A DNA stretch of 64,000 nt from Myotis daubentonii (lineage: Eukaryota; Chordata; Mammalia; Chiroptera; Vespertilionidae): positions 15,536,145 through 15,600,144 of the forward strand of contig NC_081851.1 in the NCBI RefSeq assembly GCF_963259705.1, written 5' to 3'. Shown one piece after another: positions 14,514 through 62,648 of this stretch (position 1 is the stretch's first letter; every line of letters begins with the position of its first letter). The position numbers and the translations under genes were made by a program. The notes beneath the pieces were generated by a model. It saw only the letters and a program-made list of their open reading frames with translations, did not search any database and was not told the origin of the DNA.

Positions 14514-15049
14514 AGCATTGTGATTTTTTTTTCATATTCTTAGATCAACTTAATGTGAAAATGGAACTTGAATTGCTTTATTTTTTATTTTTTTTATATA
14601 CTGCCCTTGACTTCAAGGAGCCCACAGTGTAGGACATGATTTTTATTTTGTAGTATTTAGCAGTATTTCTAATAAAAGGGCATTATACATGGACTCAGAG
14701 AAGATAACAGGTTAAAATGAGGACTCTGGACTGGAGGTTCTTAAAGTTTCCTCTCTCATTCATAATATCTGATTCTTTTTTTTATTGCTTAAATTAATAC
14801 AAAGGGTATTACATATGTGTCCATTTTTTGCCCCCCGCCCTAGACAGTCCCCTAGCCTCCCCTATCCCCCAGTGTCTTATGTCCATTGATTATGCTTATA
14901 TGCATGCATACAAGTCCTTTGGTTGATCTCTTACCCCCCTACCTCCTGTCCCCCAACCCTCCCCGGCCTTCACGCTGCAGTTTGACAATCTGTTTGAGGC
15001 AGCTCTGCCTCTGTATCTATTATTGTTCAAAAGTTTATAATGGTCTCTA

Positions 15050-18000
15050 TTATCCATGAATGAGTGAGATCATGTGGTATTTTTCCTTCATTGACTGGCT
15101 TATTTCACTTAGCATAATGCTCTCCAGTTCCATCCATGCCGTTGCAAATGGTAAGAGTAACTTCCTTTTTACAGCAGCATAGTATTCCATCCTATAGATG
15201 TACCACTGTTTTCTAATCCATTCATCTACTGATGGGCACTTAGGCTGTTTCCAGATCTTAGCTATGGTGAATTGTGCTGCTATGAACAGAGCGGTGCATA
15301 TATCCTTTCTGATTGGTGTTTCTGGTTTCTTGGGATATATTCCTAGAAGTGGGATCACAGGGTCAAATGGGAGTTCCATTTTCAGTTTTTTGAGGAAACT
15401 CCATACTGTCTTCCATAGTGGCTGCACCAGTCTGCATTCCCACCAGCAGTGCACAAGTGTTCCTTTTTCTCCACATTGTCTCCAGCACTTGTCGTTTGTT
15501 GATTTGTTGATGATAGCCAGTCTGACAGGTGTGAGATGGTACCTCATTGTTGTTTTGATTTGCATCTCTCGGATGATTAGTGACCTTGAGCATGTTTTCA
15601 TATGTCTCTTGGCTTTCTGAATGTCCTCTTTTGAAAGGTGTCTATTTAGGTCCTTTGCCCATTTTTTGATTGGATTGTTTATCTTCCTTTTGTTAAGTTG
15701 TATGAGTTCCCTATAAATTTTGGAGATTAGGCCCTTATCAGATATGACATTGGCAAATATGTTTTCCCACACAGTGGGTTTTCTCATTGTTTTGTTGATG
15801 GTTTCTTTTTCTGTGCAGAAGCTTTTTATTTTGATGTAGTCACATTTGTTCATTTTCTCCTTAGTTTCAAGCGCCTTAATAGCTGTATCAGAGGAGAAAT
15901 TGCTTCGGCATATGTCTGAGATTTTGTTGCCTTTGGATTCTTCTAGAATTTTTATGGTTTCCTGTCGCACATTTAAGTCCTTTATCCATTTTGAGTTTAT
16001 TTTTGTGTATGGTGTAAGTTGGTGGTCTAGTTTCATTTTCTTGCATATATCTGTCCAATTTTCCCAACACCATTTATTGAAGAGACTATCTTGACTCCAT
16101 TGTATGTTCTTGCCTCCTTTGTCAAATATTAATTGAGCATATTGGTACGGGCCAATTTCTGGGCTCTCTATTCTATTCCATTGATCTATATGCCTATTCT
16201 TGTGCCAGTACCAGGCAGTTTTGAGAACAGTGGCTTTGTAATACATCTTGATGTCTGGTATTGAGATCCCACCTACTTGTTCTTTTTCAGGATTGCTGCA
16301 GCTATTCAGGGTCTTTCTTTGTTCCAGGTGAATTTTTCGAGAGTTCGATCTAGATCTATGAAGTATGCCGTTGGTATTTTAATGGGAAGTGCGTTGAATT
16401 TATAGATTGCTTTGGGTAGTATGGACATTTTAATGATGTTGATTCTACCAATCCATGAACACGGTATGTTCTTCCATCTGTTTATGGCTTCCTCTATATC
16501 TTTTTTCAACGTCCTGTAGTTTTCTGAGTAGAGGTCTTTTACCTCTTTAGTTAAGTTTATTCCTAGGTAGCTTAATTTTTTTGGTGCGATTGTAAACGGG
16601 ATTGTTTTTATAATCTCTCTTTCTGAAAGTTCACTATTGGTGTATAGAAATGCCTCAGATTTCTTGGGTTTAATTTTGTATCCTGCTACATTGCCAAATT
16701 CGTGTATTAAGTCTAGTAGCTTTTTGATGGAGTCTCTAGGGTTTTGTATGTATAATATCATGTCGTCTGCAAATAAGGACAGTTTTACTTCCTCTTTACC
16801 AATTTTGATGCCTTTTATTTCTTCTTGCCTAATTACAATGGCTAACACTTCCAGTACTATGTTGAGCAGGAGTGGAGAGAGGGGGCATCCCTGTCTTGTT
16901 CCTGTTCTTAGGGGAAATGGTGTTAGTTTTTGTCCATTGAGTATGATGTTGGCTGTGGGCCTGTCATATATGGCTTTTATTATGTTGAGGTATGATCCTT
17001 CTACTCCCGCCTTTACTGAGAGTTTTTATCAAAAATGGGTGTTGAATTTTGTCAAATGTTTTTTCTGCATCAATTGATATGACCATGTGGTTTTTTTCTT
17101 TCAATTTGTTTATGTGTTTATTAATTTGAGGATATTGTACCATCCTTGCTTTCCTGGGATAAATCCTACTTGGTCCTGGTGTATGATCTTTCTGATGTAC
17201 TGCTGGATCCGATGCGCTAAGATTTTGGCATCTATGTTCATGAGGGATATTGGCCTGTAATTCTCTTTCATCGTGTTGTCTTTACCTGGTTTTGGTATTA
17301 GGGTGATGCTGGCTTCATAGAATGAGCTTGGAAGTGTTCCTTCCTCTTGATTTTTCTGTAGTAGTCTGAGGAGGATAGGTTTTAGTTCTTCCTTGAATGT
17401 TTGGTAAAACTCCCCTGTGAAGCCGTCTGGTCCTGGGCTTTTGTTTGATGGAAGCTTTTTGATGACTGCTTCAATTTCTTCCATAGTTATTGGCCTATTG
17501 AGATTTTTAGATTCTCCTGATTGAGTTTTGGAATGTTGTATTTTTCTGGGAATTTGTCCATTTCCTCCAGGTTGTCTAGTTTGTTGGAGTAGAGCTGTCC
17601 ATAGTATTTTTTAACAATCATTTGAATTTCTGTGGGGTCTGTTGTTATTTCACCTCTATCGTTTCTGATTTTGTTTATTTGGGTCCTCTCTCTTTGCTTC
17701 TTGGTGAGTCTTGCTAGCAGTTTGTCAATCTTGTTGATCCTTTCAAAGAACCAGCTCTTGGTTTCATTGATTTTCTGTATTGATTTTTTGGTCTCTATGT
17801 CATTTATTTCTGCTCTAATCTTTATTATCTCCTTCCTTCTGCTCACTCTGGGGTTTTCTTGTTGCTCTCTTTCTAATTCTTTGAGTTGTAGAGTTAGATG
17901 ATTTACTACCATTTTTTCTTGTTTTTTGAGATAGGCCTGTAGAGCTATAAAGTTCCCTCTCAGGACTGCTTTCATTGTGTCCCATAGGTTTTGGATTGTT

Positions 18001-47815: not shown

Positions 47816-50800
47816 GGGCAGAGGGATAAGGGGACCAACCACAGAGTGGTCAGAGCAGGAGAGACAGCAGCCCCTCCATGGGAAGGCAGGGCAGCAGGGT
47901 CAGGGGACCAGGGGAGGGGCCGATGGACAGGTATGAGAGGGAATGCTGCCAAGGGGCAGGGCTGGGGGCAAGGGCTCCACCATGGGGAACAGGGAACTCT
48001 CCATGGAGGGGTCTGTTTCTCCTGTTACCTATCTCTATTCCCATGTCCCCCCTTCCCTGGCCCCTCCATGGATGGTGCCCTAACCCCCCTATCTTGCTCA
48101 GACTATGTGGGGTCCTTTGTCCTCCCTGCCCTGCTACCTCCCTGGATGATGCCCTCTCCCCCGTGCCCTGCCATCTATTTCAGGACCTGTGCTAAAATCC
48201 TTGCTGTCTCAAAGTAGGCTTCCCTATCCCCCCAGCCTCTCCTCTCCATGGAGGGTTCCCTGTTCCCTCTCATGCATGCCCTGTCCCTCCATGAAGGATT
48301 CTGTCTCCTCCATGCCCTTCTCCCTCAAACCGGGGCTCCCTTTCTCCACTGCTTGCCCCCTCAAAGTGAGGTTCTCTGTCCCCCTGCCGTGCCCCCTCCA
48401 CGAAGGAAATCTTCCTCCCTGACCCTCCCCCTCAAAGTGGGGTTCTCTACACCCCTGCCATGCCCCATCCATGGAGGGTACCTTCTCCTCCCTGCCTCTC
48501 CCCCTAAAGTTGGGATCCCTGTCCCCCTGCCCAGCTCCCTCAATGGATAGTTCTGTCTCCTCTGTGCCCTGCTCTCTCAAAGTGAGGTTCCCTTTCCTCC
48601 TGCCCTACCCTCTGCATGGGGATTACCTGTCCAACTGCCCTGCCCCCTGCCCATAGAGGGTTCCTGGTCTCCCCTCTCCTCCCTGCCCTACCCCCTATAA
48701 TTGGGGTTCCCTTCCTTCCTGTCCTCCCCACTGCATGGAGGGTTTGCTGTACCCACTATTCCATCCCTGCAAGTGCAGTTCCTGTCCCCCAGCTCTAACT
48801 CCTTTCTGAAGGTTTCCCTGTCCCCCTGCCCTGCCCCCTCCATGAAGGTTTCCCTGTCTCCTGCCCTCTACCCTCTATGAAGAGTCCCCTCTCCTCCCTG
48901 CCCTGTCCCCTCCATGGAGTGTGCCCTCTCCCCCCTGCCCTGTCCCATCCATGGAGGGTTTCCTGTTCCTCTGCTCTGCCGCCTCCAAGGAGGGTCCCCT
49001 CTACTCCCTGTCTGACCCATCCCTGTTGGGTTCCCTGGCCAGCCCCCGCGCCTCGAGCCCTGCCCCCTCCATGGAGGGTTCCCTGCCCCACCTGTTCTGT
49101 AGCCTCCATGGAGGTTTCCCTGTCACCACTGCCCTGCCCCCTCCCTGGAGGGTCCCCTCTCCTCCGTGCCCAGTCCACTCCAAGGAGTATGCCCTCTCCC
49201 CCCTGCCCTGTCCCATCCACGGAGGGTTCCCTTTTCCTCTGCTCTTCCCTCTCCATGGAGGGTGCCTTCTCCTCCCTGCCTTGTCCTCTCCAAGGAGAGT
49301 CCCCTCTCCTCTCTGCCCAGTCCACTCCATGAAGGTCCCCACTTTCCCTGCCCTCCCTCCTCCATGGAGAGTCCCCTCTCCTCTCTGACAAGCCAATCCT
49401 TGGAGGGTCCCATGTTGCCAGTCCCCACTGCCCTGCCCCATCAATGGAGAGTTCCCTGTTCCCCAAACCCCCTGCCCTTCCCCCTCCATATAGAGCACCC
49501 ATGCCCACTATCCTTCCCTTCCTTGGAGGGTCCCTTCTCCTCCCTGCCCTGTTACCTCCACAGAGGGTCCCATCTCCTCTTTAGCTATAACCTCCATGGA
49601 GGGTCTCTTCACTCTCTGTCCTCTTCCCTCCATGGTGGGTCCCCTGCTCCACTGCCCTGTCTCCTGCATGAAGGGTCCCCACTTCCCCTGCCCTCCCTTC
49701 TTCATGAAGTGTCCCCTCTCCTCCCTGCCCAGCCCATCCTTAGAGGGTTCCCTGTATCCCTTCCCCATAACCCTGCCCCCTCCATGGAGGGTCCCCTATT
49801 CTCCCTTCCCTGTCCCCTACGCTCCCCGCTCCATGGAAGGTACCTTCTCCTCCTTGACCCATCTCCTCCATGGAGGTTCCCATCTCCTCCCTGCCCTTCC
49901 TCTCCCTGGAAGGATCCTTCTCCTCCATGGCATGTCCCCTCCATGGAATGTCCCCTCTCCTCCCTGCCCTGTCCCCTCCATGGAGGGGTCCCCTCTCCTC
50001 CCTGTCTGGCCCATCACTGTAGGTTTCCCTTTCCCCGTCTCTGCCCTCTCCTCCCTGCCCTGTACCCTCCATGGAGGGATCCTTCTCCTCCCTGACCCAT
50101 GCCCTCCGTGGAGGGTCCCTACTCCTCCCTACCTGTCCCCTCCATGGAGGGTTCCCATAACCCTACTGTCCCCCTGCATGGAGAGTACCTTCTCCTTCGT
50201 GACCCGTCCCCTCCATGGAGGTTCCCATCTCCTCCCTGTCTTGTCCCCTCCATGGAGGGTCCTCTCTCCTCCCTGTCTGTCCCCTCCATGGAGAGTTCCC
50301 ATCACCCTAACAGTCCCCCCTGCATGGAGGGTCCCAACTCCTCCCTGCCCTTCTCCATCATGGAGGGTCCGCTCTCCTCCCTGCCCTTCCCCTCCATGGA
50401 GGTATCCTTCTCCTTCCTGACCCATCCCCTCTATTGAGGGTCCCCGCTCCTCCTTGCCTGTTCCCTCCATGGAGGGACCCCTCTACTGCCTACGTGTCCC
50501 GGAAAGGAGGGTCCTCTCTTCTCCTGGCCCATCACCTCCATGGAGTTTCCCCTCACACCCATGCCTGTCCCCTTCATGGAAGGTTCCCTGTCCCCACTGC
50601 CCTGCACCCTCCATGGAAGGTCTCTTCTTCTCCCTACCCTTGCCGCCTCCATGGAGGGTCCCATCTCCTCCCTGCCCTCACCCCTCCATGGAGGGTCCAC
50701 TCTCCTCTCTACCTGTCCCTTCCATGAAAGGTTCCCCACTGCCCTGCACCCTCCATGGAGGGTCCCATTTCATCCCTGCCCTTTTCCCTCCATGGAGGAT

Positions 50801-51350
50801 CCCCACTCCTCCCTGCCTGACACCTCCATGGAGGGTCCCCTCTCCTCCCTGCCTGTCCCGTCCATGGAGGGTCCCCCTTCTCCCTGCCTGTCCCCTCAAT
50901 GGAGGGTTCCCTTTCCCCATGGCCCTGTCCCCTCCATGGAGGGTCCCCTCTCCTCCCTGCCTGTCCCTCCATGGAGGATTCCCTGTCCCCACTGCCCTGC
51001 ATCCTCCATGGAAGTTCCCTTCTTCTCCCTACCGTCTCCCCTCCATGGAGGGTCCCCTCTCCTCCCTTCCTTTCCCCTCAATGGAGGGTTCTCTCTCCCC
51101 CCTTCCTGTCCCCTCCATGGAGGGTCCCCTCTCCTCCCTGCCCTCTCCCCTCCATTGAGGGTCTCCTCTCCTCCCTACCTCTCCCCTCCATGGAGGGTCC
51201 CTTCTCCTCCCTTCCTTTCCCCTCCATGGAGGGTCCTCTCTCCTCCCTGCCCTGCCCTCTCCATGGAGGTTTCACTGCCTCTCCTACCCTGCCCCCTCCA
51301 TGGAAGGACCCCTTTCCCCTGCCCTGCCCCATCCATGCAGGGTCTTCTGT
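47795..51350. repeat. 35-40-bp minisatellite, about 3.5 kb
   Basis: Close to a hundred variable units resemble ctccatggagggtcccctc followed by tcctccctgccctgtcccc. Most carry the perfect palindrome cctccatggagg. Units run in one orientation from about 48010 to 51350. The first roughly 215 bases (47795-48010) run in the opposite orientation, mirroring the flanking arms. One strand is nearly all pyrimidine outside the palindromes. Open frames of up to about 336 codons occur on both strands and in overlapping frames because stop triplets are rare; none is taken as a gene. Confidence 0.9.
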
Positions 51351-51592
51351 TTCCCTGCCTGTTCCCATCACTCACAGGCTCTGCGAGGCATGTGCTCTGG
51401 TCCCCAGTGTTCATCTGTCCTGCCTCCAGGCCGTGTCCACTGTCTGCACATGAAGCACATCTCACCGTCTTCATCTGCCCAAATCCTCCCGGGCTCTCAG
51501 GATACATGTCAAATATCATTTCAAATGTCAAATCACCGAGTGATCTTTAAAAAATATAAATCAGATCCCCCTATTCTCGTGCCTAAAAGCCT
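51330..51592 (-). repeat. Right arm of the inverted repeat
   Basis: The right arm is uninterrupted: inner part 51330-51540, then outer part to about 51592 (aaaaatataaatcagatcc ... gcctaaaagcc). It pairs with 47596-47815 and 46850-46920. Beyond it no clear symmetry continues. Confidence 0.82.
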
Positions 51593-55756: not shown

Positions 55757-56523
55757 TTGTTTTTTTTAAAATGAATTACTGAATTTTCTGAAACTTATTT
55801 TGGCTTTTGCAAAAGTTCAAAAAATTCCACATTCTTTTTATAGTTTCTTCCTTCGTTGATTTTTTTTTTCTCCAATACTGGAAAAAGATAAAAAAAATAA
55901 AGGCATGTTGAAAGAAGAACATAAAAAGTTCTCCGTAATTTCACATCCCACAGTTAGATAATAGTATGATCTTTTCCCTTTGTTTCTTTGTGGTTTTTTT
56001 GTTTTTATATAGGTATGTATATGTATGCACAGTATAAAGTTGCCAAATTTGGAATTATATATTCAAATGTGTATGCACATATATTTATAAAAATATATGT
56101 ACACATACTTTTTGCTTCCCCTTGTTCTTAAAATTATACCATAAACCTTCCCGCATATTCTAAGAGAGTCCTATCTTAATGGCTTTGTAATATTCCAGCA
56201 TATGTCTAAATCACAATTCAGATAACCAAAATTCTATCACTGGTCATTTAAGTTTTTCCCACTTGTTCAGTGTTATGAATAATAAAAAGAATCAGCACTT
56301 TTTAAACTTTTTCTGTTTTTTGAATTAAAGAAAACTAATTTTAAAATCACTAGAAAATCCTTTGAGAATAGAAATGTTTTATTTTGCACTTTGCAGTAGA
56401 GTAGCCAGTAGCCGCATATGGCTATTGAGCTCTTGAGAGGTGCTTAGTGCAACTTAGGAGCGTGATTTCACCTTTTACTTCATTTTAAATTAGCCACATG
56501 TGGGTAATGACTCCCTTATTGGT
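55757..56523. other. AT-rich unassigned sequence
   Basis: No gene was recognised. The sequence at 56340-56530 looks like old interspersed-repeat DNA but I could not name it. Confidence 0.4.
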
Positions 56524-56536
56524 CAAAGCAGAACTT

Positions 56537-56572
56537 GAGAGCGCCGAATCCTAACCACTAGACCTCCAGGGA
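56537..56572 (-). pseudogene. 5' half of tRNA-Glu(CTC) embedded in an L1 insertion
   Basis: The minus strand reads tccctggaggtctagtgg then ttaggattcggcgctctc, equal to the first 36 bases of tRNA-Glu(CTC) apart from one or two changes. It stops exactly after the anticodon. The 3' half is absent. It lies between the 5' target duplication and the L1 3' sequence, so it was inserted as part of the same event. It is not an active tRNA gene. Confidence 0.85.
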
Positions 56573-56858
56573 CTGTGGTACATAGAATGAACAACATAAA
56601 CTGATGAACAAAAACAGATCCAGAGACAGAGAAACATCTACCAGACCATCAAACCCTAAAGGGAAGGTAGGGGAGGGTGGAGGTAAGAGGGGGAGATCAA
56701 CCAAAGGACTTATTTGCATGCATATAGGCCTAACCACTGGACATAGACAACAGGCGGGTGAGGGCATGAGTGGGGAGGGTGCGGAGGGTAATGTGGGGAT
56801 AAGGACACATATGCAATAACTTAATCAATAAAGAAATTTTAGAAAAACAGACAAACAA
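56573..56858 (+). mobile_element. 5'-truncated L1 (3' UTR only) with 15-bp target duplication
   Basis: The bat L1 3' UTR is recognised by acagatccagagacagagaaacatc, gatcaaccaaaggactta and aaggacacatatgcaataact, with an A-rich tail. The duplication caaagcagaacttga at 56524-56538 and 56859-56873 is perfect and includes two bases shared with the tRNA fragment. Confidence 0.9.
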
Positions 56859-57502
56859 CAAAGCAGAACTTGAAACTTGGGAGCTCAGTGCACTTCTTTG
56901 AGAATTTGCTTGTATGCAGGAATGCCCCCATCTTGTGGCCTTTTAGAATATTGCTTCTGAAATTTTGGGAACTAAGGTGTATTAGCAAGTATGAGCAAGT
57001 ATTTTTTCTTGTAACGTCAGAATGTTCATAAACCATAAATGTCACCTGGTAGATTATATAAATTATCTGGAAGTTTTAAGACTGGCATGGCTAAAAGACA
57101 GTCAGCACACAGGGCAAATGAATTGCAGGGGACAGAAAATATTTAGAAAAACACTAAGAATAGACTCACTCTTTTGATTGGGACACAGGGAGGATTTTAA
57201 ACAGAGGGACCTTGTTATCTCCCAAGTCCAACCATATTACTATGTGCAGATAAGGCTTTGTATGGTTATTCCTAGAATTAGTACAATTGGGAAATGATCA
57301 CTTTTAGGCATCAAGGATATCTTTTTCCAAGAATGGCGAAATGTGAAGAGTTCCTGGAAGTTATTGCATCCTCGAAATTGCCTTGAAACATATTGTATTG
57401 GAGATTTATCCCTAAAGCACACCCCTTTGGGGAATGTTAACCAAATATCCGGGATGCTACTTTAGTCTTTTTTTTTTTTTTGGAACTTCGAAAGATCAGA
57501 TT

Positions 57503-60555: not shown

Positions 60556-62648
60556 AATAATAAAGAAATATTAGCCATTGCAATTAGGCAAGAAGAAGAA
60601 ATAAAAGGCATCCAAATTGGAATAGAGGAAGTAAAACTGTCCTTATTTGCAGACGACATGATATTATACATACAAAACCCTAGAGACTCCATCAAAAAGC
60701 TACTAGACTTAATACATGAATTTGGCAATGTAGCAGGATACAAAATTAACCCCAAGAAATCTGACGCATTTCTATACACCAGTAGTGAACTTTCAGAAAG
60801 AGAGATTATAAAAACAATGCCGTTTACCATTGCACCAAAAAAATTAAGCTACCTAGGAATAAACTTAAAGAGGTAAAAGACCTCTACTCAGAAAACTACA
60901 GGACGTTGAAAAAAGATATAGAGGAAGACATAAACAGATGGAAGAACATACCGTGTTCATGGATTGGTAGAATCAACATCATTAAAATGTCCATGCTACC
61001 CAAAGCAATCTGTAAATTCAACGCACTTCCCATTAAAATACCAACGGTATACTTCATAGATCTAGAACGAACTCTCCAAAAATTCATCTGGAATAAAAAA
61101 AGACCCTGAATAGCTGCAGCAATCCTGAAAAAGAACAAAGTAGTTGGGATCTCAATACCAGATATCAAGATGTATTACAAAGCCACTGTTCGCAAAACTG
61201 CCTGGTACTGGCACAAGAATAGGCATATAGATCAATGGAATAGAATAGAGAGCCCAGAAATTGGCCCAAACCAATATGCTCAATTAATATTTGACAAAGG
61301 AGGCAAGAACATACAATGCAGCCAAGATAGTCTCTTCAATAAATGGTGTTGGGAAAATTGGACAGATATATGCAAGAAAATGAAACTAGACCACCAACTT
61401 ACACCATACACAAAAAGAAACTCAAAATGGATAAAGGACTTAAATGTGCGACAGGAAACCATAAAAATTCTAGAAGAATCCAAAGGCAACAAAATCTCAG
61501 ACATATGCCGAAGCAATGTCTTCACTGATACAGCTCCTAGGGCACTTGAAACTAAAGAGAAAATGAACAAATGGGACTACATCAAAATAAAAAGCCTCTA
61601 CACAGCAAAAGAAACCATCAACAAAACAAGGAGAAAACCCGCTGTGTGGGAAAACATATTTGCCAATGTCATATCTGATAAGGGCCTAATCTCCAAAATT
61701 TATAGGGAACTCATACAACTTCACAAAAGGAAGGTAAACAATCCAATCAAAAAATGGGCAAATGACCTAAATAGAGACACCTTTCAAAAGAGGACATTCA
61801 GAAAGCCAAGAGACATATGAAAACATGCTCAAAGTCACTAATCATAGGAGAGATGCAAATCAAAACAACAATGAGGTACCATCTCACACCTGTCAGACTG
61901 GCTATCATCAACAAATCAACAAACGACAAGTGCTGGAGAGGATGTGGAGAAAAAGGAACACTTGTGCACTGCTGGTGGGAATGAAGACTGGTGCAGCCAC
62001 TATGGAAGACACTATGGAGTTTCCTCAAAAATCTGAAAATGGAACTCCCATTTGACCCTGTGATCCCACTTCTAGGAATATATCCCAAGAAACCAGAAAC
62101 ACCAATCAGAAAGGATATATGCACCCCTATCTTCATAGCAGCACAATTCACCATAGCTAAGATCTGGAAACAGCCTAAGTGCCCATCAGTAGATGAATGG
62201 ATTAGAAAACAGTGGTACATCTACACGATGGAATACTATGCTGCTGTAAAAAGGAAGGAACTCTTACCATTTGCAACGTCATGGATGGAACTGGAGAGCA
62301 TTATGCTAAGTGAAATAAGCCAGTCAATGAAGGAAAAATACCACATGATCTCACTCATTCATGGATAATAGAGACCATTATAAACTCTTGAACAATAATA
62401 GATACAGAGGCAGAGCTGCCTCAAACAGATTGTCAAACTGCAGCGTGAAGGCCGGGGAGGGTTGGGGGGCAGGAGGTAGGGGGGTAAGAGATCAACCAAA
62501 GGACTTGTATGCATGCATATAAGCATAACCAATGGACATAAGACAGTGGGGTATAGGGGAGGCTAGGGGACTGTCTAGGGCGGGGGGGGGGGGAAATGGA
62601 CACATATGTAATACCCTGTGTAATACTTTAAGCAATAAAAAAAAGAAT
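60556..62648 (+). mobile_element. 5'-truncated bat L1, sense
   Basis: About 2.1 kb of L1: the ORF2 part from just before the catalytic [12 protein letters not shown] motif (60645) to the ORF2 end (62368), then a 3' UTR with gatcaaccaaaggacttgtatgc and a tail of aataaaaaaaag. It belongs to the same subfamily as the antisense L1 at 14.8-21.8 kb. ORF2 is broken near 60870, 61110 and 61810. The HeliBat sits at its 5' border. Confidence 0.9.

Follow-up and report, generated by a model that had tools for sequence, protein, structure and literature searches.

The 350-bp block at 56524-56873 of the window (the whole stretch of DNA analysed, 64,000 nucleotides) is the product of one retrotransposition event, by which an antisense 5' part of a tRNA-Glu was joined to the 3' end of an L1 element. 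At a probability of roughly 0.6, we read it as a single L1 TPRT event that took up a second RNA template by twin priming, this template being more likely an intact pre-tRNA, and whose product was later multiplied by segmental duplication. The insertion is composed as follows:

56524..56538, plus strand: 5' target-site duplication CAAAGCAGAACTTGA, seen in 27/27 aligned copies, with scattered substitutions in some
56536..56572, minus strand: antisense tRNA-Glu(CTC) nt 1-37, 36/37 identity, unambiguous for nt 1-34
56573..56581, no strand: junction bases CTGTGGTAC, either a tRNA leader in reverse complement (CTGT for ACAG) followed by filler, or one extra base and diverged L1 (TGTGG)
56582..56842, plus strand: 5'-truncated L1 3' end, recognised by L1-like genome matches, 12 aligned L1 copies and other L1 3' ends in the window
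56827-56832: AATAAA within the L1 3' end
56843..56858, plus strand: A-rich tail; some diverged copies have a longer one of (AAAC)n-like sequence
56859..56873, plus strand: 3' target-site duplication CAAAGCAGAACTTGA

The 15 bp of the target duplication had two exact occurrences in the 64-kb window, the two listed, which confirmed the perfect duplication claimed in the preliminary description. The insertion site reads TC/AAAG, a partial match to the endonuclease motif TT/AAAA. The longer part was identified as L1 by 13 L1-like matches at 89-92 % among the best 40 of 3603 candidates, their main piece starting at query position 59-60, and in the alignment to 12 L1 copies the undisputed homology begins at 56582. 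For the shorter part, the reverse complement of tRNA-Glu(CTC) aligned at 56536-56572 with 36 of 37 identities to tRNA nt 1-37; the gene L035 of the same genome agrees with the reference sequence to nt 71. A reversed tRNA pattern as control had no match in 2.13 Gb, thus chance was excluded for the tRNA match. ARAGORN at the locus and Rfam at E values up to 1 over 56400-57000 reported nothing, as expected for a locus that carries only half a tRNA. The bases TGA at 56536-56538 are part of the target duplication and also pair with U35, C36 and A37 of the tRNA. Because they belong equally to the duplication, the end of the tRNA template at this locus lies anywhere in nt 34-37, and the earlier placement of this end exactly after the anticodon had to be given up. 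Of the microhomology proposed there, the existence stood, the extent did not: it covers TGA rather than GA.

The tRNA part is antisense to the L1, and the order of antisense tRNA-Glu 5' part, L1 3' end and A-tail within a single pair of target duplications was confirmed. Template switching or RNA ligation, either of which would create a single chimeric molecule, cDNA or RNA, of the sort known from U6/L1 chimeras, is a very improbable origin of this arrangement. L1 chimeras formed in such a way are known (Law & Burns 2026, Cell Genomics, PMC13174262), but according to the available part of that paper both routes yield parts of the same orientation, whereas those in the window are opposite. A chimera of the U6/L1 type, with the RNA part in sense with the L1, was accordingly rejected as a candidate for the antisense tRNA of the window. 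An origin by two separate insertions was also considered, a solo tRNA half first and an L1 beside it later; solo halves are common in the genome (25 for tRNA-Glu, see below). By inspection, no second duplication was present between the tRNA part and the L1, and the copies of the locus bear on the same point.

The block with both duplications was present in at least 27 places (best 40 of 3603 candidates scored), and a query of the joined flanks gave 27 again. Twenty-one copies are on C13, 18 at 13.1-23.6 Mb and three near 31.2 Mb, with five gaps of ~91-94 kb in their spacing; C10, C11, C12, C14, C20 and C81 carry one copy each. In most copies the similarity spans the whole 3.3 kb compared at 95-99 %, and L009, L010, L011 and L013 are 91-92 % identical over 1.2-2.5 kb. 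The 27 places are segmental duplications of one event, not repeated insertions. The one tRNA mismatch, at nt 8 (window 56565), is probably secondary, judging by the alignment of the copies, because the tRNA base is kept in L011 and L013, which belong to the four most diverged among the 27 aligned copies; the equally diverged L009 and L010 lack it. L011 has no mismatch to the gene over nt 1-37, and its match reaches nt 38 by a change in its target duplication. With the joined-flank query, 27/27 copies matched as two pieces split at the insert and none read through; among the best 40 of 47 candidates, no paralogue was found without the insert, with one part only or with the tRNA segment and no L1. 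None of the 27 copies passes the anticodon loop. The 13 further matches of this query were weak and partial (69-87 % identity); they resemble an old dispersed repeat situated in the left flank, and one at C7:83010446 (71 %) extends 5 bases beyond the junction point. With one enclosing duplication pair and both parts in all copies, the reading as two insertions was rejected as improbable. The single L1-mediated event with second-end (twin) priming, which the preliminary description had put forward, is supported. As further observations, the copies on C10, C11, C14 and C20 sit 1-2 Mb from the contig start, and the locus belongs to a segmental duplication family, noted for window 1-64000 and C13 13.1-23.5 Mb. 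The window contains an inverted pair of 2.1 kb at 14772-16851 and 60565-62648, 95.8 % identical, each arm containing sequence similar to the L1 3' end carried by the insert, and at 48040-51550 a minisatellite, long and diverged, whose two strands both have overlapping open frames; it looks non-coding.

The whole assembly was searched for other tRNA-Glu 5' parts with a pattern of tRNA nt 1-34, allowing up to 3 mismatches. Fifty-five places were obtained (reversed control: 0), 26 of them from the family of the window, whose member L013 has an indel and was missed by the pattern. The remaining 29 places represent 28 loci, as L071 has two in tandem, a solo half doubled together with its target duplication. 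Three loci run past the anticodon loop, namely the intact gene L035, the gene L075 (TTC) and the damaged L077. The other 25 are solo halves stopping at nt 36-37 (L029-L034, L036, L039, L059-L074 and L076); 0/25 end beyond the anticodon loop, e.g., in the T loop, under a pattern that demands nt 1-34 (nt 1-35 or 1-36 for tRNA-Gly and tRNA-Asp) and thus misses shorter pieces, not longer ones. With the intact gene as DNA query, the best 40 of 55 places comprised 3 full-length, 2 diverged long and 35 ending at query 36-40, the latter being 22 members of the window's family and 13 solo loci already in the pattern set. Target duplications of 8-24 bp accompany 24/25 Glu solo halves, L039 in low-complexity DNA being left unjudged; the duplication score was reached in 0/60 flank shuffles, except for L065 (2) and L074 (1). 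The duplication follows directly behind the tRNA part or after a few bases, so that neither an L1 nor an A tail is part of the Glu solo halves. Mammalian genomes commonly contain tRNA-headed SINEs, and the tRNA-like stretch of the window could be regarded as the head of such an element. However, copy L011 matches the true tRNA exactly, the stretch ends in the loop at the target duplication, no SINE body is present, and 0/28 Glu loci continue into a shared non-tRNA body; a SINE head is extremely improbable and was rejected. For tRNA-Gly, 14 places consisted of 8 solo halves (L090, L093-L097, L102 and L103), 4 running past the anticodon loop and 2 ambiguous ones, and for tRNA-Asp all 8 places were solo halves (L106-L113). 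In total, the 5' parts of tRNA-Glu, -Gly and -Asp account for 41 tailless insertions that halt in the anticodon loop. Further L1 chimeras were not among the Gly (0/8) and Asp (0/8) halves, because their target duplication closes directly after the tRNA part. The pattern searches revealed a single intact gene for tRNA-Glu-CTC and none in full for tRNA-Asp-GTC, although solo halves of both are frequent; this scarcity may be due to masking, gaps in the assembly or limits of the search.

The bases upstream of nt 1 speak against mature tRNA halves as the usual template, since halves of mature tRNA lack leaders. At least 3 nt of leader were present in 33 of the 40 solo halves with a readable 5' boundary: 22/24 for Glu (L039 left out), 3/8 for Gly and 8/8 for Asp. 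The Glu leaders (n=22) end in AGGT (7), CCGC (3), CAG (3), ACC (3), GAG (2), CCGTCT (1) or otherwise (3). Thirty-one pairs among them have the last 3 nt in common, against a null mean of 3.6 and a maximum of 17 in 20000, and 21 of these 31 pairs stem from AGGT. The leader of L034 is that of the intact gene L035, the leader of L067 that of the gene L075, and the Gly half L093 has AGCTGGA in common with the Gly genes L091 and L092. Asp leaders comprise 6-10 bases, with TCTTCT in three and a near copy in one; a tRNA-Asp gene for comparison was not found in the assembly. Pattern and DNA searches of the assembly also found no genes with the Glu leaders AGGT, CCGC, ACAG and ACC, so we infer from recurrence that these are leaders. 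As far as the genome sequence tells, the usual template was probably a pre-tRNA that had not been processed and was primed in its anticodon loop, rather than a stress-induced half of a mature tRNA; the stress-induced half of the preliminary description is not supported as stated. Processed templates were used too, because 5/8 Gly halves keep 0-2 leader bases, and a leader-bearing cut fragment is a possible template.

At the window locus, the nine junction bases CTGTGGTAC (56573-56581) are of ambiguous origin. The 12 aligned L1 copies carry TTGTGG or TTATGG at this place; L1 copies with GTGGTAC were searched by pattern, yielding no exact one and just two places, which differ by 2-3 mismatches. 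Next to nt 1, between one and four bases may be of non-L1 origin. CTGT was rejected as a proven leader, as three of its four bases may be L1. Leaders ending in CAG are also present in L029, L036 and L071. The junction, read as C (G at -1) or as CTGT (= ACAG leader), is compatible with a pre-tRNA template, and a true tRNA half is possible at this locus because the leader evidence there comprises only these one to four bases. The template would then be a genuine half, cut in the anticodon loop by a nuclease of angiogenin, RNase L or RNase T2 type, and the second target end would have made use of the 3' end of this half. We consider this origin possible, though rather doubtful. Its best point is the clustering of breakpoints in the anticodon loop with 0/25 Glu solo halves beyond, for which a cut RNA is the simpler explanation. 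According to the available parts of two papers, mouse sperm (PMC12140624) and human extracellular RNA (PMC7430647) are rich in 5' halves of Glu-CTC, and tRNA halves were proposed as source by Law & Burns. Mature halves would, however, be without the leaders retained in 33/40 solo halves, and the frequent microhomology with the target points to annealing, not to a fixed cut.

This microhomology between anticodon loop and target was at least 2 nt in 18/23 solo Glu halves (by eye; L039 and L071 left out). The chance value is 15.6 % under equal base frequencies (p ~5e-11), a null that ignores the base preference of the endonuclease itself. TCTCA, CTCA, TCA and CA were the commonest loop-end matches to the target. 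Extra TC units at the loop CUCUC occur in 8-10/25 Glu halves, those of L034 and L064 possibly coming from the target, and are a sign of primer slippage at initiation. Four to five extra TC units were observed in L029, L063 and L072 where the anticodon loop meets the target. The window locus has the same pairing as the solo halves, with the primer end TGA on UCA; if priming took place in the anticodon loop, no cut is needed to account for the breakpoint. It differs from the solo halves in its primer, which is the second target end, the first end copying L1 RNA, and the tRNA part therefore lies antisense to the L1.

For the window locus, we propose that the L1 endonuclease would have nicked the bottom strand at TC/AAAG and that copying of the L1 RNA would have begun at its A-tail. 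On the other target strand, the 3' end (...AACTTGA) would anneal to U35-C36-A37 of a tRNA-Glu transcript, whose anticodon loop is exposed, and would be extended to the 5' end of this transcript. Joining of the two cDNAs would make this a case of twin priming on two different RNAs. As template, a nuclear pre-tRNA, intact and with its leader, would be more likely than a cleaved mature tRNA half, and the locus would have been multiplied later via segmental duplication. A wider proposition is evenly poised: antisense tRNA/L1 chimeras and tailless tRNA retropseudogenes may have one cause, in which an L1-made DNA end pairs over 2-5 bases with the anticodon loop of a nuclear pre-tRNA that is uncut and still has its leader. 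If true, the recurrent half-length reflects where a primer can pair rather than stress cleavage, and the leader is a direct readout of precursor templates versus true tRNA halves in any genome.

The source of L1-fused tRNA pieces is disputed, judging by the available parts of the papers concerned: tRNA halves were proposed for 21 human tRNA/LINE-1 chimeras (Law & Burns 2026), internal priming for tailless copies (Noll 2015). Noll 2015 (PMC5322556) found no truncated source RNAs for 5S or U2, argued that priming takes place internally, in loops of the RNA, and, citing Schmitz 2004, described tailless tRNA copies as processed or unprocessed; these statements are taken from the accessible part of that article. 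In the main text of Law & Burns (PMC13174262), as far as available, pre-tRNA, precursor, internal priming and microhomolog are absent, and leader and tailless are present in the reference list only. The leader test can help to decide between halves and precursors from genome sequence alone, and in this genome its result is mostly in favour of precursors. Beyond the papers cited here, a search of the open-licence literature, covering titles and the starts of abstracts, found no account of a leader test or of tRNA/L1 chimeras in bats. The window locus is a new member of a kind already described in human; the within-genome test of leaders and microhomology is what it adds to this kind. Like the chimeras in the available part of PMC13174262, it has a half-length tRNA (~nt 1-37) antisense to the L1, arose in a single event and is ascribed to twin priming, its target duplication of 15 bp comparing with 9-19 bp in human. 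Unlike those of the human catalogue, as described there, the event in the window was followed by segmental duplication, which raised its product to at least 27 copies. The solo halves (25 Glu, 8 Gly and 8 Asp) resemble tailless retropseudogenes, which are 3'-truncated in a loop, with target-site duplications and complementarity between target and template end (PMC5322556; also PMC3747384, both in the parts available). The window locus differs from these in its L1 3' end and A-rich tail and in a tRNA part copied from the second target end. With twin-primed (5'-inverted) L1 insertions (Ostertag & Kazazian 2001, as cited in the available part of PMC13174262), it has in common that the second target end primes reverse transcription and the 5' part is inverted, whereas its second template was a tRNA and not L1 RNA.
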